A stretch of 39,397 nt of DNA, from IMG/VR virus record IMGVR_UViG_3300025101_000059, positions 1-39,397 of that record; one strand, 5' to 3'. Within the stretch, counting starts at the first letter, position 1. Each line of letters begins with the position of its first letter. Source of the DNA: a virus. A model generated the notes under the pieces. It did not search any database, had not been told where the DNA came from, and saw nothing but the letters and a program-made list of their open reading frames with translations. The position numbers were made by a program, and so were the translations under genes. Positions 8,924 to 21,912 of the stretch are shown piece after piece.

Positions 8924-8996
8924 TGGGGGTCGCGAGGATCGAACTCGCCTTAGCTGAATTATGAGTTCAGTGCATTCACCAGATTGCTAGACCCCC
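8924..8996 (-). tRNA. tRNA with CAT anticodon (Met, or Ile2)
   Basis: A 73-base cloverleaf can be drawn: acceptor stem GGGGGTC paired perfectly with GACCCCC, a D arm containing GG in the loop, anticodon stem CTGAA/TTCAG around loop CTCATAA, a five-base variable loop and a T arm GCGAG-TTCGATC-CTCGC. The discriminator base is A; CCA is not encoded. Anticodon CAT reads Met, or AUA Ile if modified to lysidine; the loop sequence fits either. It starts four bases after the integrase stop, the usual place of an attachment site in integrase-bearing phages, so it is probably attP as well as, or instead of, a working tRNA. Confidence 0.9.
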
Positions 8997-8999
8997 TTC

Positions 9000-9872
9000 T
9001 CAAGCTGCGCGTAACCTTGTCAAAGCATTAAAAGCCTTTGCGTGCTGGTCGTGTGGCATGTGGACATATCGTTGGCACATTTGTTCCGAACTGTGTCCAA
9101 GCCAAGCAGCTATTTCCAAACTAGTACATCCACGCCTCCCAAGTTTCGTTCCACAGGTATGTCTTGTTGCTTTGATAACAAAACTTTTCTCAATTCCACA
9201 TCTATTTAGAGATTTCGTGACTTGATAATTTAATTCTCTCTCAGGCGTTGTCCATACTTTGTTTTGTGAAAAAAGTTTCACCTGTCTTTTGGCAATATCG
9301 AAGGCAACAGGAGTGAGAGGAAGTGTTCTATTAGAGGTTTTATTATCATGCGCTCTTTTAAAAAATGTAACTGTCTTCTCTTTAAAATTGTAATCTGATG
9401 CAGTTTGTCTTCTCATCTCAACAGGTCTACAGCCCATCTCACATAAAAAGACCAAGAACCTTGCGATGTCCTCCCTGTTGCGTTGCATTAAATCTTCGCA
9501 AACAGCTCCAAGTTCAAGATCTTCCCAAATAATATCTTTGTGATTATCAACAGGTAAATTCTTAGGCATTTCAGGTAAAATTTTTACTTCTCCATGAATA
9601 ACAGCCATTTCTCGCATTACTTTGATGGTGCTTACCTTTGCATTAATGGTTGCAGGAGAATTATTTAGTTCTTTGGCAAGAAACTTTCTATATCTGATTA
9701 CTTCTTTGGCAGTTATATCAACGATTGGCATCCCTGGACTAAAAAAATTAACAGCTTCTAATGCTCTTTGAACGGTTGTTTTAGCACCAACCTGTCCATT
9801 CCATTGATACTTATCTGCCTTATCAAAGGATTGCTGAATGGTGAACCGATCACCTAATGAAGTTCGTTTCAT
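9000..9872 (-). CDS. int: Tyrosine recombinase (phage integrase)
   Basis: 290 residues. An N-terminal SAM-like DNA-binding part (residues 15-105) precedes the catalytic domain with Arg149 (GCRPVEM), Lys178 (NKTSNRTLPL), Lys234-Arg237-His238 (KATRHTCGT, with Lys at the first His position), His260 (WLGHSS) and nucleophile Tyr269 (CQRYVHM), in the right order and spacing. It would recombine phage and host attachment sites, probably at the adjacent tRNA. The ATG follows directly on two tandem 10-base repeats AACCACGACC (9873-9892), with no ribosome site between. Confidence 0.93.
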   Translation of the reverse strand: MKRTSLGDRFTIQQSFDKADKYQWNGQVGAKTTVQRALEAVNFFSPGMPIVDITAKEVIRYRKFLAKELNNSPATINAKVSTIKVMREMAVIHGEVKILPEMPKNLPVDNHKDIIWEDLELGAVCEDLMQRNREDIARFLVFLCEMGCRPVEMRRQTASDYNFKEKTVTFFKRAHDNKTSNRTLPLTPVAFDIAKRQVKLFSQNKVWTTPERELNYQVTKSLNRCGIEKSFVIKATRHTCGTKLGRRGCTSLEIAAWLGHSSEQMCQRYVHMPHDQHAKAFNALTRLRAA

Positions 9873-9892
9873 GGTCGTGGTTGGTCGTGGTT
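9873..9892 (-). repeat. Two tandem copies of the ACCACGACC motif before the integrase
   Basis: In the leftward sense AACCACGACC occurs twice in a row and touches the integrase ATG. The same 9-mer precedes many small early genes. Possible roles are a promoter element, operator or translation signal; the tandem form here may suggest protein binding. Confidence 0.7.
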
Positions 9893-9898
9893 TGTGGG

Positions 9899-10216
9899 TT
9901 AGACAGCCTCCAAAGATCTGATTACTGACTTACCTTTCTTAGTAAGTCTGACCCTGTAACGTCTTCCTTCTTCAGGGTCGATATAGATCTCTACAAGGCC
10001 GAGGCAGGTTTCACGATGCCTCGCATTCATGCCTAGTGAATGAACGATACGAGAGGCAGAAGCATTTGATACGTCAAATTTGTTTTCTATCTCTCTGTAC
10101 GTGCAGGACTCCTTTTCAGATATGAAGAGAAATACCTGTGCATGATGAACTGGAAAATTACCTGGGGCCAATGAGCCCACAGTTTCAAGAGCAGCGGCAA
10201 GTTTAGATAGATCCAT
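9899..10216 (-). CDS. Winged-helix DNA-binding protein, MarR-like
   Basis: 105 residues from ATG 10216. A helix-turn-helix is visible in TYREIENKFDVSNASASRIVHSLG (about residues 39-62) followed by a wing with basic residues (GRRYRVRLTKKGKSVIRSL), the MarR layout. It is adjacent to, and in the same direction as, the integrase. The 110-residue protein at 10546-10878 has the same architecture, so the pair may be paralogous regulators, perhaps of the lysogeny decision. No ribosome site is obvious before the ATG. Confidence 0.7.
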   Translation of the reverse strand: MDLSKLAAALETVGSLAPGNFPVHHAQVFLFISEKESCTYREIENKFDVSNASASRIVHSLGMNARHRETCLGLVEIYIDPEEGRRYRVRLTKKGKSVIRSLEAV

Positions 10217-10386
10217 GATTCAAACGGATCTTTTCGACAATTTGCCACCCGATAGTTTTCGGTAGAGCTGATACATAGGATAGGCCCTTTCTTTTGAAAA
10301 TGAATATAACAAGCATAGTGCCTTTGTCCTCTGGGGTGTGGACAAATCACCGATGCGACCATTTCTATGATTCCTTCTTTCATCAA
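10087..10386 (-). CDS. Possible small gene overlapping the winged-helix gene
   Basis: A 99-codon leftward frame whose first half (10217-10386) covers otherwise empty sequence and reads MVASVICPHPRGQRHYACYIHFQKK-like protein with plausible codon use; GAAGGAATC upstream of an internal ATG at 10362 could be a ribosome site. The second half overlaps the winged-helix gene in another frame by 130 bases and looks like a shadow. It could be a frameshifted or truncated gene that originally ended near 10217. Confidence 0.3.
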   Translation of the reverse strand: MMKEGIIEMVASVICPHPRGQRHYACYIHFQKKGPILCISSTENYRVANCRKDPFESWIYLNLPLLLKLWAHWPQVIFQFIMHRYFSSYLKRSPARTER

Positions 10387-10545
10387 ACATAGATCGACTA
10401 TTTAATATATCTACACGGTTTTTGACTTTCCGTAAAGTGGGAGTACATAAAAAAGAGGACTACTACGCCCCCATGTATAAAATGTACTTATAAGAGAAAC
10501 ATAATCGCTCTCATTGGTTAATAACTGTTTTAATCAATACATTTT
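10387..10545. promoter_or_regulatory. Regulatory gap between the two winged-helix genes
   Basis: AT-rich sequence without a convincing gene. It contains an imperfect palindrome GTATAAAATGTAC at 10475-10487, a plausible operator for the flanking winged-helix proteins. TTGACT followed 16 bases later by TACATA (rightward sense, near 10422-10450) resembles a sigma-70 promoter, but no rightward gene follows. Function inferred only. Confidence 0.35.
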
Positions 10546-10878
10546 TTAAATTAGCCCTGCTTCTTGAAGTAATTGTTTACCACCTTTAGCCAAACGGTAT
10601 TCATGGCCAGTTAAGGGTGATTTACGTTTCTTCCTGGTCAACAAATGAAGGTGAGGCATTTGTATTACTTCACCTTCAGCATTCCATTGAGGAGTAATAG
10701 AACGAATTGCTCTAGAAACACTACCGTTATGTGCGCCTGTTAGGTGAGTCAATTCTTCTAATGTCCTGGGTGCATCTGCTACCAATAGAAGTGATTCAAT
10801 AGACAAAACACCCATCTGATGATGAGAGTTCATCCTTAGAAAAGAAAGCAGCTTTGCAAATGCAGTGAAGTTGGTCAT
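10546..10878 (-). CDS. Winged-helix DNA-binding protein, MarR-like
   Basis: 110 residues from ATG 10878, in an ATGA overlap with the upstream gene and with a strong AGGAGG site. A helix-turn-helix is visible in TLEELTHLTGAHNGSVSRAIRS (about residues 41-62), followed by a basic wing (LLTRKKRKSPLTGHEYRL) and a final helix. It matches the layout of the 105-residue protein beside the integrase. It closes the leftward early cluster, so it may switch early transcription or control lysogeny. Its target is unknown. Confidence 0.7.
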   Translation of the reverse strand: MTNFTAFAKLLSFLRMNSHHQMGVLSIESLLLVADAPRTLEELTHLTGAHNGSVSRAIRSITPQWNAEGEVIQMPHLHLLTRKKRKSPLTGHEYRLAKGGKQLLQEAGLI

Positions 10879-11168
10879 ACTTCCTCCTTTCCATACCTCT
10901 TGAAATACCATTCACAATATTCTTCAGGTGTTGGCTCTTCCCATTTGAAATCAGGGTTATGTACCTGAGTGGTAAATGCTCCAGTTTTGAAACAATAAGG
11001 TCCATTTGATAAGCAAAGAATTTTCTTGCCATCAGTAAAAATTGCCCCAGTTTGGCAGGTGGGTTGATTAGAGGTTATGAATTGACAGCTTTCCAAATAT
11101 TTTTTGATGTTTTTTTCGTAGTAACATCCAAATTGTCTATAAGGGCTATCAATTCCATGATTTTTCAT
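10875..11168 (-). CDS. Small Cys-containing protein, unknown
   Basis: 97 residues, joined to both neighbours by ATGA-type overlaps. Four or more Cys (GCYYEK, LESCQF, PTCQTG, ILCLSNGPYC) suggest a metal site or disulfides, but no standard zinc-finger spacing is clear. The C-terminus ends EEYCEWYFKRYGKEEV. Not recognised. Its position in a run of small early genes suggests a host-takeover or counter-defence role (inference). Confidence 0.6.
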   Translation of the reverse strand: MKNHGIDSPYRQFGCYYEKNIKKYLESCQFITSNQPTCQTGAIFTDGKKILCLSNGPYCFKTGAFTTQVHNPDFKWEEPTPEEYCEWYFKRYGKEEV

Positions 11169-11395
11169 GGTGATTCCTCCTTTGAAGAATGCAAAGGTTT
11201 GGTAATGTCCTTTACTCTCTCAACTTCTTTAGCCAGTTCTTTCACGTAATACTCACGTTGCTTTTGATTTTTAATCTTGAGCGAGCGTAATTTCCTTAGT
11301 CTTTTCGACTCAGGTGGTTCATTACCTTTAAAGCAGGAACCGATAAGAAAAAAGCCCCCAATAAAGAGGGCTCCGATCACTAGACCTGCGTTCAT
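11165..11395 (-). CDS. Small single-pass membrane protein
   Basis: 76 residues. An N-terminal hydrophobic segment (GLVIGALFIGGFFLIGSCF, residues about 4-22) is followed by a strongly basic, then helical charged tail (RLRKLRSLKIKNQKQREYYVKELAKEVERV), probably cytoplasmic and coiled coil. The GSCF near residue 20 resembles a lipobox weakly. It overlaps both neighbouring genes by four bases. No known family. Confidence 0.6.
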   Translation of the reverse strand: MNAGLVIGALFIGGFFLIGSCFKGNEPPESKRLRKLRSLKIKNQKQREYYVKELAKEVERVKDITKPLHSSKEESP

Positions 11396-11502
11396 TTCTT
11401 TTCCTCCATTTCAGCTTCATGTTCCTCTTGAGCGAGGTTCATGCTGGCTTCCCATTGTTCATAGGTAATGCCATAGCTTTCATAGAACTCAGCATCAGTC
11501 AT
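11392..11502 (-). CDS. 36-residue protein, unknown
   Basis: MTDAEFYESYGITYEQWEAS... to EEKK. Start and stop each lie in an ATGA overlap with the neighbours, and a GGAGG ribosome site lies inside the end of the upstream gene. The overlaps are the main support. Acidic and probably helical; no function known. Confidence 0.55.
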   Translation of the reverse strand: MTDAEFYESYGITYEQWEASMNLAQEEHEAEMEEKK

Positions 11503-11606
11503 TTCTTTTCCTCCTTTAGATCCTTGAGAAGTTTAAGTATCTTCTCAGTAGCAATGGCAATGCGATTTATATCGCGTTCCATATCTGTGTTGAATTGACG
11601 AGTCAT
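11499..11606 (-). CDS. 35-residue helical protein, unknown
   Basis: MTRQFNTDMERDINRIAIAT... to KEEKK, a single amphipathic helix by appearance, with AGGAGG upstream and ATGA overlaps at both ends. Its last residues (EEKK) and end sequence match those of the next gene, so the two could be partial duplicates at the 3' end. No function known. Confidence 0.55.
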   Translation of the reverse strand: MTRQFNTDMERDINRIAIATEKILKLLKDLKEEKK

Positions 11607-11962
11607 TTTTCCTCCTCACAGAATGAATGCCAGGGTCGTGGTAATTGGGCTAAATACTTCAAGCAATTTTCATGTGTCATGTAATGGTCTTCTCTGAAAT
11701 CCTCGTCAAATAAATAAATGACGTGAACTCTGTCTCTATAACAGTCGAAAAAAACCCGTTCTTTCCTGTCATGCCAGTTAATAGTATGATCTTCAACTTC
11801 AAACCCGAAATGAGGTTCTTTAGTAGGATCATAATCTTTGGCCTCTTTTTGAGGCCCTGCATGATGAGCTGTCATAACATCATTATGCTCAAGGTATTTA
11901 GTCCATAAATCTTTTAAACCAGGACAGTGTTCTCCATAGTAATCAGAAGTTTTATAGACCAT
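11603..11962 (-). CDS. 119-residue protein, unknown
   Basis: Starts in a TAATG overlap with the upstream gene. Rich in Asp, Glu, His and aromatic residues (HFGFEVEDHTINWHDRKERVFFDCYRDRVHVIYLF), giving an acidic beta-rich look. Near its end (11634-11642) the codons for LPRP contain an exact ACCACGACC, about 28 bases before the next start codon, as at other gene starts in this cluster. Not recognised; probably an early accessory gene. Confidence 0.6.
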   Translation of the reverse strand: MVYKTSDYYGEHCPGLKDLWTKYLEHNDVMTAHHAGPQKEAKDYDPTKEPHFGFEVEDHTINWHDRKERVFFDCYRDRVHVIYLFDEDFREDHYMTHENCLKYLAQLPRPWHSFCEEEK

Positions 11963-12237
11963 TATTCAGCACGTAAAGAAAGTGACTTAAGAGAAATAAA
12001 TTGTACTTTTAACCATTTAAAAGCTTTAGTCATATCACAGCCGAGGGATGTTGTTTCTTTAACATGCACCCCCCAACGTAACAATATGTCAGCTTTATAT
12101 TGGTCAAAAGAAATGAACTTTGCAGCATTTTTCTTTGCTGCCAGGTCAGTCTTTAACAGTTCGATCTCTGTTCTCTGCTCACAATAAGCAGCGTAAAGAT
12201 CAGCTCTTAAAGACGTTGGCTTTAGTTCTTTTTTCAC
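11962..12237 (-). CDS. 91-residue basic protein, unknown
   Basis: Begins with GTG at 12237 (VKKELKPTS; no ATG is available) after the hairpin-motif leader at 12254-12308. Basic and mostly helical (EQRTEIELLKTDLAAKKNAAKF), ending SLKSLSLRAE, with a TAATG overlap into the next gene. It heads a run of overlapping genes to 10546, which may be one transcription unit. No function known. Confidence 0.55.
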   Translation of the reverse strand: MKKELKPTSLRADLYAAYCEQRTEIELLKTDLAAKKNAAKFISFDQYKADILLRWGVHVKETTSLGCDMTKAFKWLKVQFISLKSLSLRAE

Positions 12238-12253
12238 GAGTAAAAAAGTAAAA

Positions 12254-12308
12254 GGTCGTGGTTGATGCTTTTGAAGGCATCATGGAACCCAACATAAGAA
12301 GGGCTCCA
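12254..12308 (-). promoter_or_regulatory. Hairpin-hairpin-motif leader
   Basis: In the leftward sense: first hairpin TGGAGCCC...GGGTTCCA (12283-12308, ten-base loop), second hairpin TGATGC...GCATCA (12263-12282), then ACCACGACC (12254-12262), then the start of the 91-residue gene. Same order as the leaders at 12724, 13718 and 14110. There is no T-run after the first hairpin, so it is not a typical intrinsic terminator. Confidence 0.75.
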
Positions 12309-12316
12309 GGATGTCA

Positions 12317-12562
12317 TCATTTAATCCACTTATGAAAGACAAAAGTGGAATAATCGCCAGCTAATAACCAATTCAATCGCCAGGGTTTATGGAAATGAGC
12401 ATCGTCTAAAACATCTATACACTCAGCACCTTTTAGGTCTAAATGTTCCAATGTTTCTGCTATCTCTTTCTCTTCTCCCTCTTCTAAAGAATCAGCTACC
12501 CCGTTGACTAAATATGAAGCCCAGGGGCTCGGCAATTGTTCTTTGATAACTTCAAAGTCCAT
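12317..12562 (-). CDS. 81-residue acidic protein, unknown
   Basis: MDFEVIKEQLPSPWASYLV... overlaps the end of the 50-residue gene upstream. The N-terminal half is acidic and helical (ADSLEEGEEKEIAETLEHLDL); the C-terminal half (HFHKPWRLNWLLAGDYSTFVF) looks like a small compact domain. I recall similar small proteins in phages and plasmids but no function. Next to antirestriction genes, so counter-defence is possible. Confidence 0.6.
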   Translation of the reverse strand: MDFEVIKEQLPSPWASYLVNGVADSLEEGEEKEIAETLEHLDLKGAECIDVLDDAHFHKPWRLNWLLAGDYSTFVFHKWIK

Positions 12563-12704
12563 TAGTTTTTTCCTCTTCTCTTCTTTCTTTTATTGGTTTG
12601 TCCAAATGGTCAAACCCTCCTAGAAGTGCCTCTTGATTAGATGTTTCCTCAAGATCAAAAGATTTTGAGTCACCATCCATATTTACAAAAGTAATACTTG
12701 GCAT
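12552..12704 (-). CDS. 50-residue protein, unknown
   Basis: The likely ATG is at 12704 (MPSITFVNMDGDSKSFDLEE), preceded by CTGGAG as ribosome site and the hairpin-motif leader 12724-12778. A longer open frame runs through the leader hairpins and is not believable as protein. The C-terminus is charged (KPIKERREEEKTNGL). No function known. Confidence 0.55.
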   Translation of the reverse strand: MPSITFVNMDGDSKSFDLEETSNQEALLGGFDHLDKPIKERREEEKTNGL

Positions 12705-12723
12705 AAGAAAAAAACTCCAGTTT

Positions 12724-12778
12724 GGTCGTGGTTGATGTCTCAATGATGAGAACATCATGGAAGGCTCGAAAGCCCTCC
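12724..12778 (-). promoter_or_regulatory. Hairpin-hairpin-motif leader
   Basis: Leftward: hairpin GGAGGGCT-TTCG-AGCCTTCC (12759-12778), a second hairpin GATGT...ACATC with a one-base bulge (12734-12756), then ACCACGACC (12724-12732). The first hairpin is identical in sequence to that at 14140-14159. Lies between the ArdA-like gene and the 50-residue gene. Confidence 0.8.
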
Positions 12779-12787
12779 AGGATGTCG

Positions 12788-13366
12788 TCATTCAAAGATT
12801 GCATAGCCTTCACCTTGGATAAATTCAGCCGACCAACTATTGCAGTAAAACTCACCATGCCAGACTTGTTCCCAGTCGATATAAGACCATAAAGGCCCCT
12901 TCTCTTCTTCACGGGTCATGCTGTCATACCGGTCTTCTACAAAGTCGGCTTCACTGTCCCAGATGCCGTGATATTTATCTCGAAATTGTTCTTCAGTTGG
13001 TGGCTCTTGCTCTGACCAACAGCACTCACAAAAATATTTATAAGCTTTTAGATCAGAGTCATTAAGGTCTTTTACTGTTTGGACATAATCAATTAAATGT
13101 TGAAAATCAGGCCACTCAGTACCAACTAGACAATTACAAGACAAACCTTCATGATCATGCATTGCCCACTCTTCAGCCCCTAAAGCTGGAGAATTAGCAA
13201 TTATATGATCTATGCATTCTTGAATATCTTCAACGCTCTCGCATAGTTCCAGGTTTACCCAGGAACCATGCAAATCGCCTTGATTGTATGCAGCTAAGCA
13301 AGCGAAATAAGCATTAAATCTTTTTCCACTGCCAAGAGCTGCTGGTCTTGTTTTTGTTGTAGACAT
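12788..13366 (-). CDS. ardA: ArdA-type antirestriction protein
   Basis: 192 residues. N-terminal YFACLAAYNQGDLHGSWVNLE, then IIANSPALGAEEWAMHDHEGL, then YHGIWDSEADFVEDRY and a C-terminal LWSYIDWEQVWHGEF: these segments and their order match the ArdA family, an acidic DNA mimic that blocks type I restriction-modification enzymes. The sequence is strongly acidic, as required for mimicry. The ATG directly follows the stop of the DUF2958-like gene, so both share one transcript. It plays the role that Ocr (gp0.3) has in T7. Slightly longer than plasmid ArdA, because of a middle insertion with several Cys (YKYFCECCW). Confidence 0.85.
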   Translation of the reverse strand: MSTTKTRPAALGSGKRFNAYFACLAAYNQGDLHGSWVNLELCESVEDIQECIDHIIANSPALGAEEWAMHDHEGLSCNCLVGTEWPDFQHLIDYVQTVKDLNDSDLKAYKYFCECCWSEQEPPTEEQFRDKYHGIWDSEADFVEDRYDSMTREEEKGPLWSYIDWEQVWHGEFYCNSWSAEFIQGEGYAIFE

Positions 13367-13705
13367 CTACATAACCTCTGCAAGAGGAACAGGTGACCAA
13401 TGCAAATCTCTTTCAATCATGTATTTGAGATTGACTAATGGATTACTTTTAAACTTGCCAACACATTCCTTGAGAGACGTTAGTGGGATATATCCCAGTT
13501 CTGCTCCATCAGGATGAGCTGTAAGTTTTGTATATCCAAAAGCCTCAGAGCCCTCTTCATTAACTTCAGTTAAATAAAAGTCTCCAATTGGTCCAAATAA
13601 ATGACAAAGAACCATTGCTTTTTTTCCTTGACTATCTGTTTTGTATAGTCTTGGCATTGAATCAATAACCGTTTGAGGCATTAATTCAAGAGCTGAATTA
13701 GTCAT
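13367..13705 (-). CDS. DUF2958-like protein
   Basis: 112 residues from ATG 13705 (MTNSALELMPQ); an earlier in-frame start would read through the leader and is unlikely. The pattern MPRLYKTDSQGKKAMVLCHLFGPIGDFYLTE, then AFGYTKL, then ELGYIPLTSL and ERDLHWSPVPLAEV matches my knowledge of DUF2958 proteins, which are common on plasmids and phages near antirestriction genes. No biochemical function is established. It is followed without a gap by the ArdA-like gene. Confidence 0.75.
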   Translation of the reverse strand: MTNSALELMPQTVIDSMPRLYKTDSQGKKAMVLCHLFGPIGDFYLTEVNEEGSEAFGYTKLTAHPDGAELGYIPLTSLKECVGKFKSNPLVNLKYMIERDLHWSPVPLAEVM

Positions 13706-13717
13706 AAATAAACCTTT

Positions 13718-13766
13718 GGTCGTGGTAATGCTGAGAGAACCCAGCATGGAACCCCGAAGGGCTCCA
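13718..13766 (-). promoter_or_regulatory. Hairpin-hairpin-motif leader
   Basis: Leftward: hairpin TGGAGCCC-TTCG-GGGTTCCA with a C(UUCG)G tetraloop (13747-13766), hairpin ATGCTG...CAGCAT (13728-13747), then ACCACGACC (13718-13726) and AAAGGTTT as ribosome site. TACCACGACCAAAGGTTT is identical to the leader at 14110. Confidence 0.8.
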
Positions 13767-13775
13767 GGATGAGAT

Positions 13776-14096
13776 CTAAAGACCAGCTCTAAGTTGACTA
13801 ATCTTTCTCATTACTTCTCCAAAATTCCGGTCATAGTTGGCTGGATACGCATCGAAACTTCTTATCCTTGACTCTCCCTCTTCAAAGTAGTCATGCCAAT
13901 CTGGCATCTCTCCCTTTTCAGATCTGAAAGCCTCAATAAATAAGCTCGCATCCATATCCTCTTCAAGCCAAACCTGATCATCTTTTTTAAAACTAAATCT
14001 TGAGATAAAATGCTCAATACCCAGTTCTTTTAAAAGACGTTCAGGAACTTGTAGCCACCCATGGCCAGAGTCATGATGAAAAGCAAACTGTCGCAT
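13776..14096 (-). CDS. 106-residue acidic protein, unknown
   Basis: MRQFAFHHDSGHGWLQVPERLLKELGI..., followed by an acidic part (KKDDQVWLEEDMDASLFIEAF) and RIRSFDAYPANYDRNF. I recall FHHDxGHGWL proteins as common small unknowns on phages and plasmids near antirestriction genes. It has its own hairpin-motif leader and no overlap with neighbours, so it forms a single-gene cassette. No function known. Confidence 0.65.
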   Translation of the reverse strand: MRQFAFHHDSGHGWLQVPERLLKELGIEHFISRFSFKKDDQVWLEEDMDASLFIEAFRSEKGEMPDWHDYFEEGESRIRSFDAYPANYDRNFGEVMRKISQLRAGL

Positions 14097-14109
14097 CTTT
14101 AAAACCTTT

Positions 14110-14159
14110 GGTCGTGGTAAATGCTGGAGAACCCAGCATGGAAGGCTCGAAAGCCCTCC
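14110..14159 (-). promoter_or_regulatory. Hairpin-hairpin-motif leader
   Basis: Leftward: hairpin GGAGGGCT-TTCG-AGCCTTCC (14140-14159), perfect hairpin ATGCTGG-GTTCT-CCAGCAT (14121-14139), then TT and ACCACGACC (14110-14118), AAAGGTTT and the start codon at 14096. This is the clearest copy. Confidence 0.85.
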
Positions 14160-14169
14160 AGGTTAGGTT

Positions 14170-14397
14170 CTATTTGTTGAGCATTGCCGGAACTCTCTTC
14201 AGAGTCTCCTCATACTCAACATCCTCGTCCTCGTCTTCCATCTCTATGCAATCAATTGCACTCTGAGCAAATTCGACGAGGCCCTCTTCTCTTATCACTG
14301 TGTTCTCAAGGTCACTCAATAACCCTTCAGGATCATGTTTATAAGCCTCATGAATCAGTGACAACAGAACAGTCGAGGAAACTTTCTTAGAAGCCAT
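14170..14397 (-). CDS. 75-residue acidic protein, unknown
   Basis: From ATG 14397 (MASKKVSSTVLLSLIHEAYKHD), downstream of the hairpin-motif leader; the frame is open further upstream only through that leader. The C-terminal half is strongly acidic (IDCIEMEDEDEDVEYEE), which would fit a DNA-mimic or inhibitor but proves nothing. First gene of the leftward early cluster. Not recognised. Confidence 0.6.
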   Translation of the reverse strand: MASKKVSSTVLLSLIHEAYKHDPEGLLSDLENTVIREEGLVEFAQSAIDCIEMEDEDEDVEYEETLKRVPAMLNK

Positions 14398-14412
14398 AAT
14401 TAAATTGTCTAG

Positions 14413-14435
14413 GGTCGTGGTAACTCCGAAGAGTT
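14413..14435 (-). promoter_or_regulatory. Hairpin-motif leader of the first early gene
   Basis: Leftward: hairpin AACTC-TTCG-GAGTT with a C(UUCG)G loop (14422-14435) runs directly into ACCACGACC (14413-14421), 16 bases before the ATG at 14397. Unlike the others it has one hairpin only, as expected for the first unit of the array. Confidence 0.75.
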
Positions 14436-14930
14436 GAACCCATTCTATCACGAGTTCTGCAACCTCGCAGATAATTTAGGGACAATTGCAACACACCTTC
14501 GGCGGGTGAGTCGTTAAACGTCAGTGATGCCAAGCCCTCAAGCCCTGCAAATTAATTGAACGAATATGTTATTCGATACAAACCTAGCTGCAGCAATGGA
14601 CCAGGCCCCACCCTGTTTAATAGTTTATTTTTTTTGATGGAATATATAGTATTTTCGAATTTCTGAAGGGGTATCGGGGGAGTGGCCATCATCACGTTTA
14701 TAAATACCCACCTAATCGCGCGAGGCATTTTGGGAATTATGTGTGGATATAGTTAGGTTGTTGTGTTATATCGAGGTAACGGATTGTTGGATATATGTGC
14801 CGCGTGTTGTTAAAAACCCTGCCGTCTGTTTATATGTCTAATCGGATTGAAAGTCAATGTTCCATATTTACATAGTGAAACATATTATGTGTTTATATTG
14901 AGTTTATTCATCAGGGGTGTATGTTTAAAG
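14436..14930. other. Non-coding divergent region between leftward and rightward genes
   Basis: About 495 bases with no convincing gene. It separates the leftward early genes from the rightward gene at 14952, so early promoters for both directions should lie here. CGAAT-ATGTT-ATTCG near 14560-14575 is a small inverted repeat. TATATT- and TATTAA-like boxes in the leftward sense (14600-14660) and TTGAGT with TATGTT 16 bases later (14899-14926, rightward) are possible sigma-70 elements. The base composition from about 14640 is richer in GT and TA runs than the neighbouring genes. Confidence 0.45.
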
Positions 14931-14939
14931 ACCACGACC
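14931..14939 (+). promoter_or_regulatory. ACCACGACC motif before a rightward gene
   Basis: The same motif as in the leftward leaders, here in rightward orientation, followed by AAGGT as ribosome site and ATG at 14952. With a preceding G and following AAG it forms one arm of a 13-base inverted repeat whose other arm is at 15224-15236. Confidence 0.75.
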
Positions 14940-14951
14940 AAGGTATTAATT

Positions 14952-15197
14952 ATGAGTAGGAAGCCTACTTATCAGATGAAATGGATGAAGGATGGTGTAT
15001 CGAAGGATAGAGATCCGTTGGGTGGGGAGGTGACTAGGGATTTTAGTAGTAGTGAGAGAAAGATATATGGAGATTGCATGAGGGAGTATCGAGCAAAGTT
15101 TGGATTAGTGGATGGGTTAAGGACAGATAGGGAAGGGTTTAGTGAATATTTGAGGAAGAGGAGAGAAGAAGATGAGAAAGCGAGAGGATATAGGTAA
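14952..15197 (+). CDS. 81-residue basic protein, unknown, flanked by inverted repeats
   Basis: From ATG 14952 (MSRKPTYQMKWMKDGVSKDRD), after AAGGT as ribosome site. An upstream extension is possible but would read through the motif. The protein is strongly charged and basic with many Arg from AGG/AGA codons (EYLRKRREEDEKARGYR), a codon choice unlike its neighbours and suggestive of recent acquisition. It is the only gene between the early and late modules and is enclosed by 13-base inverted copies of GACCACGACCAAG. Function unknown. Confidence 0.6.
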   Translation: MSRKPTYQMKWMKDGVSKDRDPLGGEVTRDFSSSERKIYGDCMREYRAKFGLVDGLRTDREGFSEYLRKRREEDEKARGYR

Positions 15198-15223
15198 GAT
15201 GAGAGGAGCCCTGAAGCTTGCTG

Positions 15224-15236
15224 CTTGGTCGTGGTC
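15224..15236 (-). repeat. Right arm of 13-base inverted repeat with ACCACGACC
   Basis: Reads GACCACGACCAAG leftward, an exact match to 14930-14942 read rightward. No leftward gene starts after it, so unlike the other copies it does not serve an obvious start codon. Confidence 0.75.
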
Positions 15237-15254
15237 AGCGTGGGTTAGATGAGG

Positions 15255-15274
15255 CCCTCTTAGTTGAGGGTTTT
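15255..15274 (+). terminator. Probable intrinsic terminator
   Basis: CCCTC-TTAGTT-GAGGG followed by TTTTG, about 58 bases after the stop of the 81-residue gene. Short stem, so moderate strength. Confidence 0.5.
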
Positions 15275-15468
15275 GTCGCTAATACTTGAAAAATTAGAAA
15301 AGATAGTTTATTGTGAATTTGTTGAGGAAACCACCTATTAGCTAGGCCTGGAATCCCCAGGTATGCGTAGGGCGTAGCCTCAATCTCTTTAAAGATGAAA
15401 CCCTCGATCACAAGTCGGGGGTTTTGTTGTTTTTGTCTATACAATGGAAATAGTTTCATGGGGGAACT

Positions 15469-15621
15469 ATGCCTTATCTCACAAATAACCAAAGACTTGA
15501 ATTAGGTCTTGTTGGTTCATGCGTCGTCAAAGACGAGACATTGAAAGCAGTTAAGCCTGCTAATTATTATGTGCAGGATGCTCCTGTTGTAGAAGAGGAG
15601 AAGAAAGAAGAGGAAGAATGA
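15469..15621 (+). CDS. 50-residue acidic-tailed protein before the terminase
   Basis: MPYLTNNQRLELGLVGSCVV... ending in VVEEEKKEEEE. GGGG before the ATG may serve as ribosome site. Its TGA overlaps the terminase ATG (ATGA), so translation is coupled. It is the first gene of the rightward late module. Function unknown. Confidence 0.6.
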   Translation: MPYLTNNQRLELGLVGSCVVKDETLKAVKPANYYVQDAPVVEEEKKEEEE

Positions 15622-17393
15622 AGGAACTTTGGGAACCATTACCTCCACAATTAAGAGATAGTTTTCCAAATTTCACTTGTTATCTGTTGCGAGAGTTGGG
15701 GTTAGCAGATGCTCCAACGAAGCAGCAGATTTCTGTGTGTCAATGGATGCAAGAAGGGCCTGATAAAAGTCTGACTGTTGCATTCAGGGGATTAGGGAAA
15801 AGTATTCTTGCGTCTTTTTATGCGTTGTGGAGGTTGAGAGTAGACCCGAATGAAAAGATTTTGATTGTGTCTGCAACTGCAGTGAAGTCAACTGACTTCT
15901 CGTCTTTCATGCTGCGTTGTATTGGTGAAATAGATATTCTCCAGTGTCTTATGCCTGGGACGGAAAATAGATTTTCAAATGTAGCTTTTGATGTGGGCCC
16001 CGCCCAGGTGGAACAGTCTCCGTCTGTTCGTTCGATGGGAATTATGGGTCAGACAACCGGACAAAGATGTACTTGTGCAATTCTTGATGATGTAGAAACA
16101 CTTGCTAATGTCATTACACAGTTAAAACAAGACAGGGTTGCACACGCTGTTGAAGAAATACAAAGTATCATAAAGCCAGAGGAGGGGCAGGTTTTACCCC
16201 GTAAAATATTATATTTAGGAACGCCACATACGGAGACAAGTATATATTTAAGGCTTGTGAGAGAAAGGAACTATGCGGCTAGATATTGGCCTGCGTTGTA
16301 TCCCGACGAGCTTGATTGCTACGAGGGCAACCTCGATCCGACGATTGAACAAGAGGTCTTCTCGAATAGCAGCCTCGTGAAACAACCGACGGACCCAGAA
16401 AGATTTGGTCATGAAGATATTCTCCAGAGACAAGCATCAATGACCAAAGCCAGCTTTGAACTTCAGTTCATGCTGAATACGAGATTGGCAACCTTAGATA
16501 AGTTCCCAATTCGTCTTGGTGATTTGATGGTTGTTGATTTAGATGGAACAGCCCTACCTGAAACATGTGTTTGGTCTAATCAGCCTGATGTCAGATTGCA
16601 AGAATTAGTTTGTGTCGGACTTGGTGCTGATCGTTATTACCATCGTCCTATTTTTCAAAATGGTTGGATTCCGAAATCTGATACTTGGCGGTGTGTCTTA
16701 GCTATTGACCCTGCTGGTCGTGGTGCTGATGAATTGGCTTGGGCTGTTGTAGCAGAGTTAAACGGAAATATGTTTTTACTGGAATCAGGTGGTTCAACTC
16801 TTGGTTATGCAGATGAAGTTCTGCAGTATTTAGCTAAGACAGCAAAGAAATGGGAAGTGAATTATGTAGTCGCTGAAAGTAATATGGGTGACGGAATGTT
16901 TACTGCTTTATTGAAGCCCCATTTGCTTCGCGAGTATCCCGTCACTATTGAAGAAGTTAGACATAATATTCGAAAAGAGCAACGGTTATGTGACACGCTC
17001 GGTCCATTAATTCAGCAGCATCGTCTTATTGTTAATAGTCGCGTTATTAAACAAGATTATCGGTTGACGGATGAAGATCCTGAACATGGATACGCTCGGT
17101 CTTTATTTTTCCAGGCTTCAAGGTTGACAGCAGAAAGAGGTTGTTTGTCTCACGATGACAGATTGGATGCCTTAGCTATTGCTTGTGGTTTCTTTGTCGA
17201 ATCTGCAGCACAAGATCAGGAGAAAGCTAAGAAATCTCGTGCTGATCAATTATTTGAAGATGAGTTAGAAGCCTGGATGGATGAAACTGTTGGCTCTATT
17301 GATTCAATTGCTATGGGTTGGGGTGGTCGTAAATCTAGGGGGAAGGTTCATGGCGGGGTACAGAGGCTACAGGTGGGCGTTTCAAAGGAATAA
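15618..17393 (+). CDS. Terminase large subunit, T7 gp19-like
   Basis: 591 residues. ATPase: Walker A AFRGLGKS (residues 55-62), as in T7 gp19 AFRGVGKS; SATAVKSTDFSSF; Walker B CAILDDVET near residue 155. Nuclease: AIDPAGRGADELAWAVV near residue 362 and LDALAIACG near 516 with conserved Asp. It packages concatemeric DNA into proheads through the portal. Unlike in T7, where gene 19 is nearly last, it stands at the beginning of the late module, as in many cyanopodovirus-like genomes arranged as circles. A leftward gene overlaps its last 59 bases. Confidence 0.95.
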   Translation: MKELWEPLPPQLRDSFPNFTCYLLRELGLADAPTKQQISVCQWMQEGPDKSLTVAFRGLGKSILASFYALWRLRVDPNEKILIVSATAVKSTDFSSFMLRCIGEIDILQCLMPGTENRFSNVAFDVGPAQVEQSPSVRSMGIMGQTTGQRCTCAILDDVETLANVITQLKQDRVAHAVEEIQSIIKPEEGQVLPRKILYLGTPHTETSIYLRLVRERNYAARYWPALYPDELDCYEGNLDPTIEQEVFSNSSLVKQPTDPERFGHEDILQRQASMTKASFELQFMLNTRLATLDKFPIRLGDLMVVDLDGTALPETCVWSNQPDVRLQELVCVGLGADRYYHRPIFQNGWIPKSDTWRCVLAIDPAGRGADELAWAVVAELNGNMFLLESGGSTLGYADEVLQYLAKTAKKWEVNYVVAESNMGDGMFTALLKPHLLREYPVTIEEVRHNIRKEQRLCDTLGPLIQQHRLIVNSRVIKQDYRLTDEDPEHGYARSLFFQASRLTAERGCLSHDDRLDALAIACGFFVESAAQDQEKAKKSRADQLFEDELEAWMDETVGSIDSIAMGWGGRKSRGKVHGGVQRLQVGVSKE

Positions 17394-19242: not shown

Positions 19243-20877
19243 ATGCCAACTGCTGAACAACGCTATAGAGCCGGAGAGAGTGATAGAAATTATCACCTTG
19301 AAAGAGCTAGGACATCAGCTCGTCTGACAATTCCGTACATTGTTCCTGCGAGTAATGATCCTGGAGCGAACAATAAAGATACATATCCAGTTCCTTGGAA
19401 TGGAATCGGGGCTCGCGGTTGTCTTAATTTGGCGAGCAGAATGCTTCTTGCATTGCTGCCACCAACTCAGCAGTTCTTCAGGTTCTCGCTAGATGATGCA
19501 GAGTTAGTTAAGCAGGGTGTGCCTCCAGAGGAGAAGGCACAATTTGAGGAGGCGTTAAGCAAGATTGAGCGATTGGTTCTTCGAGAGATTGAAGCGAGTA
19601 ATGATCGCGTGGTTTTCCATGAGGCGTTATTACATTTGGTCATTGCTGGTAATGCTCTTTTATATGTTTCTCCTGAAGGATTAAGAGTTTTTCATCTCAA
19701 TCGTTATGTGATGTTTAGAGATTCAATGGGTAATCCATTGGAATGTATTACATGTGAAGAGCTTCCTTATTACTCATTGCCTGAAAAGGTTTTAGCAATG
19801 TTGCAGGAAGAGGAAGAAACTGAGTTAAAGGGAATACTTGATCCTTATGAAGGAACTTTGGATCGCAAAGAAGAAGAGAAGACTTGTAAGTTATATACCT
19901 ACATCCAATGGAAAGGTGATCAAGTTACCTGGCATCAAGAAGTAAAAGGCAAAATTATTCCTGGAACTGAAGGTAGAGCACCGAAAGATGTTAGTCCTTG
20001 GTTGCCATTGAGGATGACCCATGTGGCTGGACAACCTTACGGGGTTGGATATGTGGAATCTGCTGCTATTGCTGACCTTCAAACAGTTGAAGCGTTATGT
20101 CAAGCAATCGCGGAAGGTGCGCTTGCCTCCTCGAAAGTGTTGTTTTTAGTCAAGCCGTCAGGGGTTACGAAGGCTAATGATCTCGCAAAAGCACCCAATG
20201 GAGCATTTGTTACAGGAGATCCGAATGATGTTCTGGCATTACAAGTTCAGAAGAGCCAGGATTTATCCGTGGCGATGCAAGGAAAACAACAGATAGAAGC
20301 TAGGCTGTCACAGGCTTTTATGCTCGCAGATCAACGTGACGCGGAAAGAGTTACAGCCGAAGAAGTTCGGTTACAGGCACTGCAGGTTGAAAACTCTTTA
20401 GGCAGTATTTATTCAATCCTTACGACTGAGTTTCAAGTTCCTTATGTCGCTAGAAAGCTGGATATTCTTCAACGAGAAGGGAAGGTTCCAAAGCTTCCGA
20501 AGGAATTAGTAAAAGTTGTAATGACAGTGGGTCTTGCAGCCGTTGGTCGTGGTAACGACTTAGAACAGCTAGTGCGGTTTACTACGACCCTGGGGCAAAC
20601 AATTGGCCCAGAAGGATTGGCTACTTATTTGAAGCCATCCGAATTAATCACCCGTCTTGCCTATTCAATGGGTATTGACACTTTAGGGCTGGTTAAGACT
20701 GAGCAAGAGCTGCAAGCAGAACAGCAAGCAGCTCAAGAAGCTCAACAGGCAGCACAGGAACAGGCGCAGCAAGAAGCCTTGTTGCGTTCCAAAATAGCTG
20801 ACCCACAAAACCTAGCCAATGCAGCTCAAACAACTCAAGAGATGCAAATGGCTGAAGAACAACCTACCGAACAGTAA
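19243..20877 (+). CDS. Portal (head-tail connector) protein, T7 gp8-like
   Basis: 544 residues, usual length for the family. N-terminal region with ARTSARLTIPYIVPAS and WNGIGARGCLNLASRMLLALLPP, then FRFSLDD, YVSPEGLRVFHLNRYV and a central wing with RMTHVAGQPYGVGYVESAAIADLQTVE, and the crown-like Gln/Ala-rich C-terminus, all typical of T7-type portals. It forms the dodecameric ring for DNA passage and scaffold-capsid nucleation. The scaffold gene follows after two bases. Confidence 0.95.
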   Translation: MPTAEQRYRAGESDRNYHLERARTSARLTIPYIVPASNDPGANNKDTYPVPWNGIGARGCLNLASRMLLALLPPTQQFFRFSLDDAELVKQGVPPEEKAQFEEALSKIERLVLREIEASNDRVVFHEALLHLVIAGNALLYVSPEGLRVFHLNRYVMFRDSMGNPLECITCEELPYYSLPEKVLAMLQEEEETELKGILDPYEGTLDRKEEEKTCKLYTYIQWKGDQVTWHQEVKGKIIPGTEGRAPKDVSPWLPLRMTHVAGQPYGVGYVESAAIADLQTVEALCQAIAEGALASSKVLFLVKPSGVTKANDLAKAPNGAFVTGDPNDVLALQVQKSQDLSVAMQGKQQIEARLSQAFMLADQRDAERVTAEEVRLQALQVENSLGSIYSILTTEFQVPYVARKLDILQREGKVPKLPKELVKVVMTVGLAAVGRGNDLEQLVRFTTTLGQTIGPEGLATYLKPSELITRLAYSMGIDTLGLVKTEQELQAEQQAAQEAQQAAQEQAQQEALLRSKIADPQNLANAAQTTQEMQMAEEQPTEQ

Positions 20878-20879
20878 CG

Positions 20880-21812
20880 ATGACCACGACCCCAACATCA
20901 CAACCAGAATCACAACTTCCTGATACTTCTCCGCAGATCACGATTCCTGAAGGTCAGGATGGAATGGCCGCGCCTGGACAAGAAAATATTGTCGAGGACT
21001 ACATCAAGGAACAGGAAGCTGCACAACAAGAGGCAAATGTTCCTGAGAAGTTCAGGAATGCTTCTAAGGAAGATCTGATCAAGGCTTATCAGGAGCTTGA
21101 GAAGATGAAGAATAAACCTGAAGAAAGCCAAGAAACAAAATCGGAATCAGAGCCTGAGCAAACAAATGAGCTTAAGGCTCCAGAGACACGAGAGGAATAC
21201 ACTCCTGAATTAGCGAATCAACTTTATGGAGAAGAAGGAGTCGCGAAGTTAAAGGAGAAAGGAATTGACATGACTGAATTGATGTGGAAAGGAGATCAAG
21301 GAGAGGATATAAGTGAGCACTATGACGCTTTAGCTGAATCCCTTGGAGTAACCAAACCAATGGTTGCGATGTTTATGCAGAAAGTACAAGCACAGCAAGC
21401 AGCCGACGGGGGAGCCTCTGAGATCAGCGAAGCAGATGAAGCTGAGTTAATGAATGAGGCTGGAGGTAAAGAGCAGTTTGAGCAGCTTGCAGGGTGGGCT
21501 AAGGGGAATTTATCGGAAGATGTGATCAAAGAATTTGATAGCGTCGTTGATTCTGGTAACAAAGAAGCAGTGAGATGGGCTATTCGAGCATTGAGGGCAG
21601 AACGTAATTCTCCTGATTCAGTTGTAGAGCCAAAACTCTTCGGGGGTGGTGATGCACCAGCCGAGTCAACATTCAAAAGTCAGCAACAAGTTCTTGATGC
21701 AATGAATAAAACCAATTCCAGAGGACAAAGGTTGTACGACACTGATAGTGCATATAGAGAAAAATTCGAGCAATTGTTGAGAAATAGTCCTGATAATCTC
21801 TTTCCACGCTAA
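20880..21812 (+). CDS. Scaffolding protein, T7 gp9-like
   Basis: 310 residues, highly acidic and Gln/Glu-rich with disordered N-terminus and helical C-terminal part, between portal and capsid as in T7. VPEKFRNASKEDLIKAYQELEKM and WAIRALRAERNS are the most structured-looking parts. Directs prohead assembly and is then lost. The ACCACGACC 9-mer begins directly after the ATG, coding for Thr-Thr-Thr. Confidence 0.85.
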   Translation: MTTTPTSQPESQLPDTSPQITIPEGQDGMAAPGQENIVEDYIKEQEAAQQEANVPEKFRNASKEDLIKAYQELEKMKNKPEESQETKSESEPEQTNELKAPETREEYTPELANQLYGEEGVAKLKEKGIDMTELMWKGDQGEDISEHYDALAESLGVTKPMVAMFMQKVQAQQAADGGASEISEADEAELMNEAGGKEQFEQLAGWAKGNLSEDVIKEFDSVVDSGNKEAVRWAIRALRAERNSPDSVVEPKLFGGGDAPAESTFKSQQQVLDAMNKTNSRGQRLYDTDSAYREKFEQLLRNSPDNLFPR

Positions 21813-21912
21813 TATTTAGTCAGAACGCCCCTAAGCAGCAGGCCCTTCAAGGAGGACAACCTGGGTTAGTGATGGATAAAGCGGTCTAATCGTAAATCTT
21901 ATGTATTAACCA
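21813..21912 (+). promoter_or_regulatory. Leader of the capsid gene
   Basis: About 100 bases with CAAGGAGGACAACCTGGG and a five-codon mini-frame ATGGATAAAGCGGTCTAA. A similar ATGGATAAAG sequence lies before the gene at 30131. No strong ribosome site stands next to the capsid ATG. Possibly promoter or leader-controlled; undecided. Confidence 0.3.

Follow-up and report, generated by a model that had tools for sequence, protein, structure and literature searches.

A candidate small RNA complementary to the early-gene leaders of a T7-like podovirus

The question raised by this locus is what reads a nine-letter word, ACCACGACC, that recurs directly before the start codons of small early genes in the 39,397-base virus contig IMGVR_UViG_3300025101_000059, a T7-like (Autographiviridae) podovirus (the whole contig is referred to as the window). 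The initial annotation had listed ten copies of the word as a hairpin-bearing leader mark and had proposed as candidate roles an RNA polymerase signal, a repressor site, an RNA processing or stability element, or homology for cassette exchange. Of these roles an element acting at the RNA level fits best, while a polymerase signal and a repressor site are less likely. We consider it probable that the window encodes a trans-acting small RNA (sRNA; approximately 15208-15277, + strand) that pairs with the C/A-rich leaders of the early genes and of the integrase gene in a GcvB-like manner, most likely repressing them. Two observations lead to this reading: the copy at 15227 lies in a structured locus on the + strand complementary to all leaders, and relatives with differing motifs carry matching complements.

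The leader word and its hairpins

All ten copies were found at the positions and on the strands listed, and four further exact copies are present at 672 (-), 16716 (-), 20545 (-) and 20883 (+). Dinucleotide shuffles contain 0.07 copies on average and never as many as the 14 counted here, in agreement with the expectation that such a 9-mer is rare by chance. It had been claimed that most copies lie 0-30 bases before a start codon. This holds for eight genes at distances of 0-27 nucleotides (nt), seven of them leftward and one rightward (12 nt). It does not hold for the copy at 15227, which has no leftward gene start nearby and is thus not a leader, nor for those at 672, 16716 and 20545, which lie within coding sequence. 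The leader sites and associated features are as follows:

9873-9891 (-): tandem motif, 0 and 10 nt before the ATG of the integrase gene (9000-9872), without hairpins
11634-11642 (-): motif inside gene 11603-11962, at its 3' end; a 35-codon open reading frame (11499-11606) starts 27 nt further on; the weakest leader site
12254-12311 (-): two hairpins, then motif; gene 11962-12237 (GTG start); z -4.6
12724-12786 (-): two hairpins, then motif; gene 12552-12704; z -5.0
13718-13775 (-): two hairpins, then motif; gene 13367-13705; z -3.7
14110-14166 (-): two hairpins, then motif; gene 13776-14096; z -4.2
14413-14435 (-): leader 1, hairpin AACTC-TTCG-GAGTT, then motif; gene 14170-14397
14442-14450 (-): TGATAGAAT, a putative extended -10 of host type for the leftward early transcript, immediately 5' of the first leader hairpin, identified by eye
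14931-14939 (+): motif, 12 nt before the rightward gene 14952-15197
20883-20891 (+): motif overlapping codons 2-4 of the scaffold gene; a doubtful member

The order hairpin, hairpin, motif and start codon, described previously for 12254, 12724, 13718 and 14110, was recovered by folding, with minimum free energies of -21.8 to -25.5 kcal/mol and z-scores of -3.7 to -5.0 against shuffles. The single hairpin reported at 14413 is present as well; it is short and reaches only z -0.7 when taken alone. Relatives were reached via protein similarity and their contigs are designated by L-numbers (L001, L052 etc.). The 14413 hairpin is compensated in L045 (AGTTC/GAACT), and hairpin 1 of the two-hairpin modules shows compensatory changes among relatives (GGAGGGC/GCCTTCC, GGAGCCC/GGGTTCC, GGAGCTC/GAGTTCC, GGAGGCC/GGCTTCC), so that the covariation check proposed in the initial annotation came out in favor of the hairpins. 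In 92 leaders from 18 relatives and the window, the 45 nt upstream of the motif fold at -16.5 kcal/mol versus -9.9 kcal/mol for shuffled sequences, the motif is preferentially unpaired (0.74 vs 0.44) and its median distance to the start codon is 12 nt. Enrichment before genes is seen in relatives, too; the exact 9-mer stands at 127 distinct leader sites in the clade and is kept even within unrelated flanks, as at the integrase and SSB genes. The tandem motif before the integrase gene is also found in L001 and L002, and other lineages carry their own motif at this place.

The putative extended -10 before the 14413 leader would place hairpin and motif at the extreme 5' end of the early transcript. 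Boxes of the type TAG(A/G)(A/C)T precede the first leader also in L052, L045, L138, L172 and L184 (by eye). A -10-like box was noticed before the first leader only, and a promoter scan of 14000-15700 remained at background level. Among relatives different genes follow the same hairpin leader (12254-14166 in the window; L003, L022, L038, L039, L044, L049 and L052), which suggests an exchange of early-gene cassettes at the leaders and lends support to the cassette idea put forward earlier. The copy at 20883 within the scaffold gene is retained in close relatives and lost or altered in others; its retention may reflect conservation at the protein level, and its role as a conserved target was not upheld beyond the close relatives.

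The locus beside the terminase gene

The copy at 15227, formerly counted among the leaders, reads GGUCGUGGU on the + strand, where it forms part of the loop of a hairpin close to the terminase gene, with a -10 box on one side and a terminator-like hairpin on the other:

15195-15200 (+): putative -10 box TAAGAT, 13 nt before the outer stem, overlapping the stop codon of gene 14952-15197
15208-15277 (+): candidate small RNA with outer stem, seed-bearing inner stem-loop and terminator-like hairpin
15224-15235 (+): seed loop CTTGGTCGTGGT, complementary to the leader motif
15248-15277 (+): terminator-like hairpin with the tail TTTTGT, not flagged by a strict T-run scan

The locus has the sequence GCTG-CTTGGTCGTGGT-CAGC inside an outer AGCCC/GGGTT stem, followed by the terminator-like hairpin, and the 70 nt at 15211-15280 fold with z -2.6. 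The covariance model R1 retrieves the candidate across the clade that shares the window motif. The 12-nt loop does not vary among 26 distinct relatives, and the changes in the stems are compensated. Two-sided changes affect 11 of the 17 pairs of stems and terminator, and all five covariation measures exceed all 500 shuffles, with slid controls far lower, in an alignment that was fitted to the model structure and is thus biased toward it; the initial MAFFT alignment already displays changes in both stems. Among 23 distinct upstream sequences, 16 have TANNNT at a distance of exactly 13 nt from the outer stem and three more at 12 nt (shuffle maximum 5). An Rfam scan of the window returned the tRNA and two sub-threshold chance matches only, none for the small-RNA locus and no homology to the GcvB family. 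A second, stronger terminator, which was flagged by the strict T-run scan, lies downstream of the small-RNA locus and before the terminase gene (15394-15428, +). Two further copies of the motif, 16716-16724 and 20545-20553, are in antisense orientation inside the terminase and portal genes. The coding parts of late mRNAs therefore contain GGUCGUGGU, which may be due to chance or to codon use or may serve as an additional complement.

Leader words were found by counting k-mers before start codons, independently of the window motif, and such a word was recovered in most well-covered relatives, being ACCACGACC in many of them. Other lineages use CCCACGACC, CCCACGACT, TCCACGACC, AACTACCACAACC, CACGACAAC, CACCCGAC, (CCAACCA)n, AACAACCACC or CCAACCAAC, and the annotated relatives (Autographiviridae cyanopodoviruses, namely uvMED group G9 and S-SRP02) have the same leader architecture with lineage-specific C/A-rich motifs. 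In the relatives holding the region, every word has its complement on the strand of the terminase gene, next to a terminator-like hairpin and upstream of that gene; contigs lacking the terminase or early genes (e.g., L205, L208, L065, L066 and L076) were excluded from this comparison. With one genome for each of twelve motif classes, the small-RNA windows gave 54 matches of at least 9 nt to their own leaders, while permuted assignments averaged 12.4 and never exceeded 43 (0 of 200,000 permutations reached the observed value); as the small-RNA windows were picked by their complement to the motif, this test measures the specificity of own pairing and not the discovery of the locus. A matrix of 19 genomes gives the same block pattern. 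In the more distant T7-like phages YIMV22061, P-RSP2, CRP-125 and LUZ100 no leader word of this kind was found.

What reads the word

Judged by its sequence, the locus appears to have what is expected of a trans-acting sRNA, i.e., a seed with complements in several mRNAs close to the start codon, co-variation of seed and targets, and a conserved structure with an intrinsic terminator. The sRNA would present GGUCGUGGU in a hairpin loop and would end at the terminator-like hairpin. The loop would base-pair with ACCACGACC, the unpaired C/A-rich stretch between the hairpins and the start codon, and a duplex at this place, 0-27 nt upstream of the start codon, would mask the ribosome entry site and probably also a C/A-rich translation enhancer. 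As the pairing would cover the ribosome entry site, the likeliest outcome would be that the early genes and the integrase gene are repressed together. The gene context suggests that these functions are silenced once the terminase-side strand is transcribed, which would amount to a post-transcriptional control of the early-to-late transition or of lysis and lysogeny. Alternatively, the sRNA may activate its targets, or the leaders may titrate the RNA. A discrete RNA species, its pairing in the cell, the repression and its timing are what we infer from these data. With a somewhat better than even chance, this extends to the whole lineage of cyanobacterial podoviruses: each phage would tag its early genes and integrase gene with a private C/A-rich word that is read by one sRNA of its own, and the word would drift between lineages, so that swapped cassettes must carry or adopt the local word.

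Several points weigh against the proposed sRNA. The reverse-complement copy is at the same time a plain further copy of one double-stranded motif, and co-variation alone is no proof of RNA pairing because a shared DNA motif gives the same signal; the wobble bias of variant leaders gave no decision on RNA pairing. The short fragment L072 yielded no 9-nt match. Part of the TANNNT signal may come from a stop codon, as in some phages the -10 box overlaps that of the gene before it; moreover, the sequences compared are related to each other. The terminator has a short T-run in the window and none in L015/L060 and in some freshwater phages. The RNA-based reading is favored over a DNA-based one by the RNA architecture of the leaders, the abutment of motif and ATG, the tandem forms, the divergence of the polymerase specificity loop and the structure on the terminase side, where the covarying stem-loop, the terminator-like hairpin and the -10 box are all oriented to yield the complement.

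The first candidate had been a promoter of the phage RNA polymerase, with ACCACGACC as the promoter core of the T7-like enzyme and 15227 as the first leftward promoter. The window encodes such a polymerase, the motifs are directional, lineage-specific and repeated before genes, an alignment of the motif with the T3 promoter is possible, and a terminase-side copy would likewise change with the others. We nevertheless regard this explanation as unlikely. At the integrase and SSB genes of several phages the motif lies 0-3 nt from the ATG, which leaves no space for a transcription start behind a T7-type promoter, and in several lineages it forms tandem repeats of varying number. The specificity loop, in which the contact residues are not known for this group, is strongly divergent among phages with an identical motif; together with the zero spacing and the repeat forms this disfavors a promoter. 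Moreover, the copies are concentrated ahead of the polymerase gene rather than the capsid gene, and the RNA structure at 15208-15277 is left unexplained. In LUZ100, a T7-like phage with a mapped transcriptome and the same order of MarR, integrase and polymerase genes, the annotation places host-specific promoters ahead of the polymerase region and phage-specific ones from the polymerase gene onward (PMC10134795), a layout that speaks against polymerase promoters throughout the early genes.

Less probable still is that the C/A-rich element is a mere translation enhancer, kept alike by cassette exchange, with the terminase-side copy as a recombinational leftover. C/A-rich leaders are known as enhancers (PMC3879156) and different genes do share leaders here, but an exact 9-mer preserved in unrelated flanks at that many distinct sites, and a terminase-side copy embedded in a covarying stem-loop in every testable relative, do not fit. 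A DNA operator bound by a phage regulator is improbable: gene 9899-10216, which precedes the integrase gene as in annotated relatives, shows weak similarity to MarR, and a protein reader would make all copies co-vary as well, but ACCACGACC is not palindromic, follows the gene sense in the leaders, is positioned between hairpins and start codon rather than at a promoter, and the loop-terminator locus would have no explanation. A primase or packaging signal, suggested by the polarity of the copies, was dropped, as the motif occurs in leaders beside start codons and some variants lack the GAC core; pairing of the motif with rRNA is unlikely since related phages differ in the motif.

Genome context and known systems

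The genome is organized in two arms, with the following features:

leftward arm: exonuclease, primase/helicase, RusA, SSB, single-subunit RNA polymerase and tyrosine integrase
rightward arm: terminase, portal, scaffold, capsid and tail genes
8924-8996 (-): tRNA-Met, adjoining the integrase gene
12788-13366 (-): gene for an ArdA-type antirestriction protein (Pfam, E 8e-20), located within the group of small early genes and without a motif of its own

The tRNA-Met gene is a possible attachment site, and AP013547 has an annotated tRNA at the corresponding place. By polymerase identity the nearest annotated relatives are the uvMED group G9 genomes AP013546 (57%) and AP013547 (52%), followed by Synechococcus phage S-SRP02 (32%) and AP013548 (28%); a megablast search of the early region against phage records gave no match. 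Some contigs of relatives were binned as Cyanobium, and the hosts are likely picocyanobacteria. L209 and L213, contigs of this phage group, were binned in gammaproteobacterial and sphingomonad metagenome-assembled genomes, which are probably binning errors and not hosts. Upstream of the capsid gene the element GCAGGCCCTTCAAGGAGGACAACCTG (21838-21863, +) was noticed, of which altered forms precede the capsid gene in L015, L016, L017 and L018; its outer arms seem to change together (CAGG/CCTG, CGGG/CCCG, TCGG/CCGA), and it could function as a structured leader of late genes or as a promoter of the phage.

A system of this kind was not described in the open-licence literature searched, where absence is not proof, and the paper on S-SRP02 makes no mention of a promoter, motif or terminator. 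If the proposed sRNA is real, integrase-bearing T7-like cyanophages would gain a post-transcriptional switch between early and late expression or between integration and lysis. About a dozen natural pairs of seed and target would be at hand for studies of small-RNA co-evolution, and a leader word with its complement beside a terminator offers a simple search handle for such systems in unannotated phages.

Similar to the phage promoters of LUZ100, the word is a short, directional, phage-specific motif repeated before genes; in contrast to them, it is found mostly in the early genes preceding the polymerase gene and may abut the ATG. PeSL (promoter-early-stem-loop) cassettes of T4-type phages carry an early promoter. 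As in these cassettes, cited in PMC4503421, a stem-loop and a regulatory element are found between small early genes and are common to different genes, but here the repeated element is a leader word beside the start codon and the complementary RNA is encoded elsewhere.

The phage antisense RNAs P22 sar, lambda OOP and P1/P7 c4 pair with phage mRNAs and affect lytic and lysogenic genes; each has one or two targets, and the phage-derived small RNAs treated in the consulted passages of the review PMC12197685 act on single phage mRNAs or host genes, with no leader word shared by several phage genes. Compared with such single-target antisense RNAs, the window would hold a small-RNA regulon within a phage, with about eight phage genes carrying one common leader word. 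In its mode of action the candidate would resemble GcvB of enterobacteria, which has a G/U-rich seed, C/A-rich target elements just 5' of the start codons of many mRNAs and a 3' terminator; its target sequences contain elements that are themselves translation enhancers (PMC3879156), so that GcvB provides a precedent for a small RNA that silences C/A-rich enhancers. Unlike GcvB, to which it has no sequence relation in Rfam, the candidate described here is encoded by the phage, is directed at the phage's own early genes, presents its seed in a loop and has seeds that are specific to each lineage.

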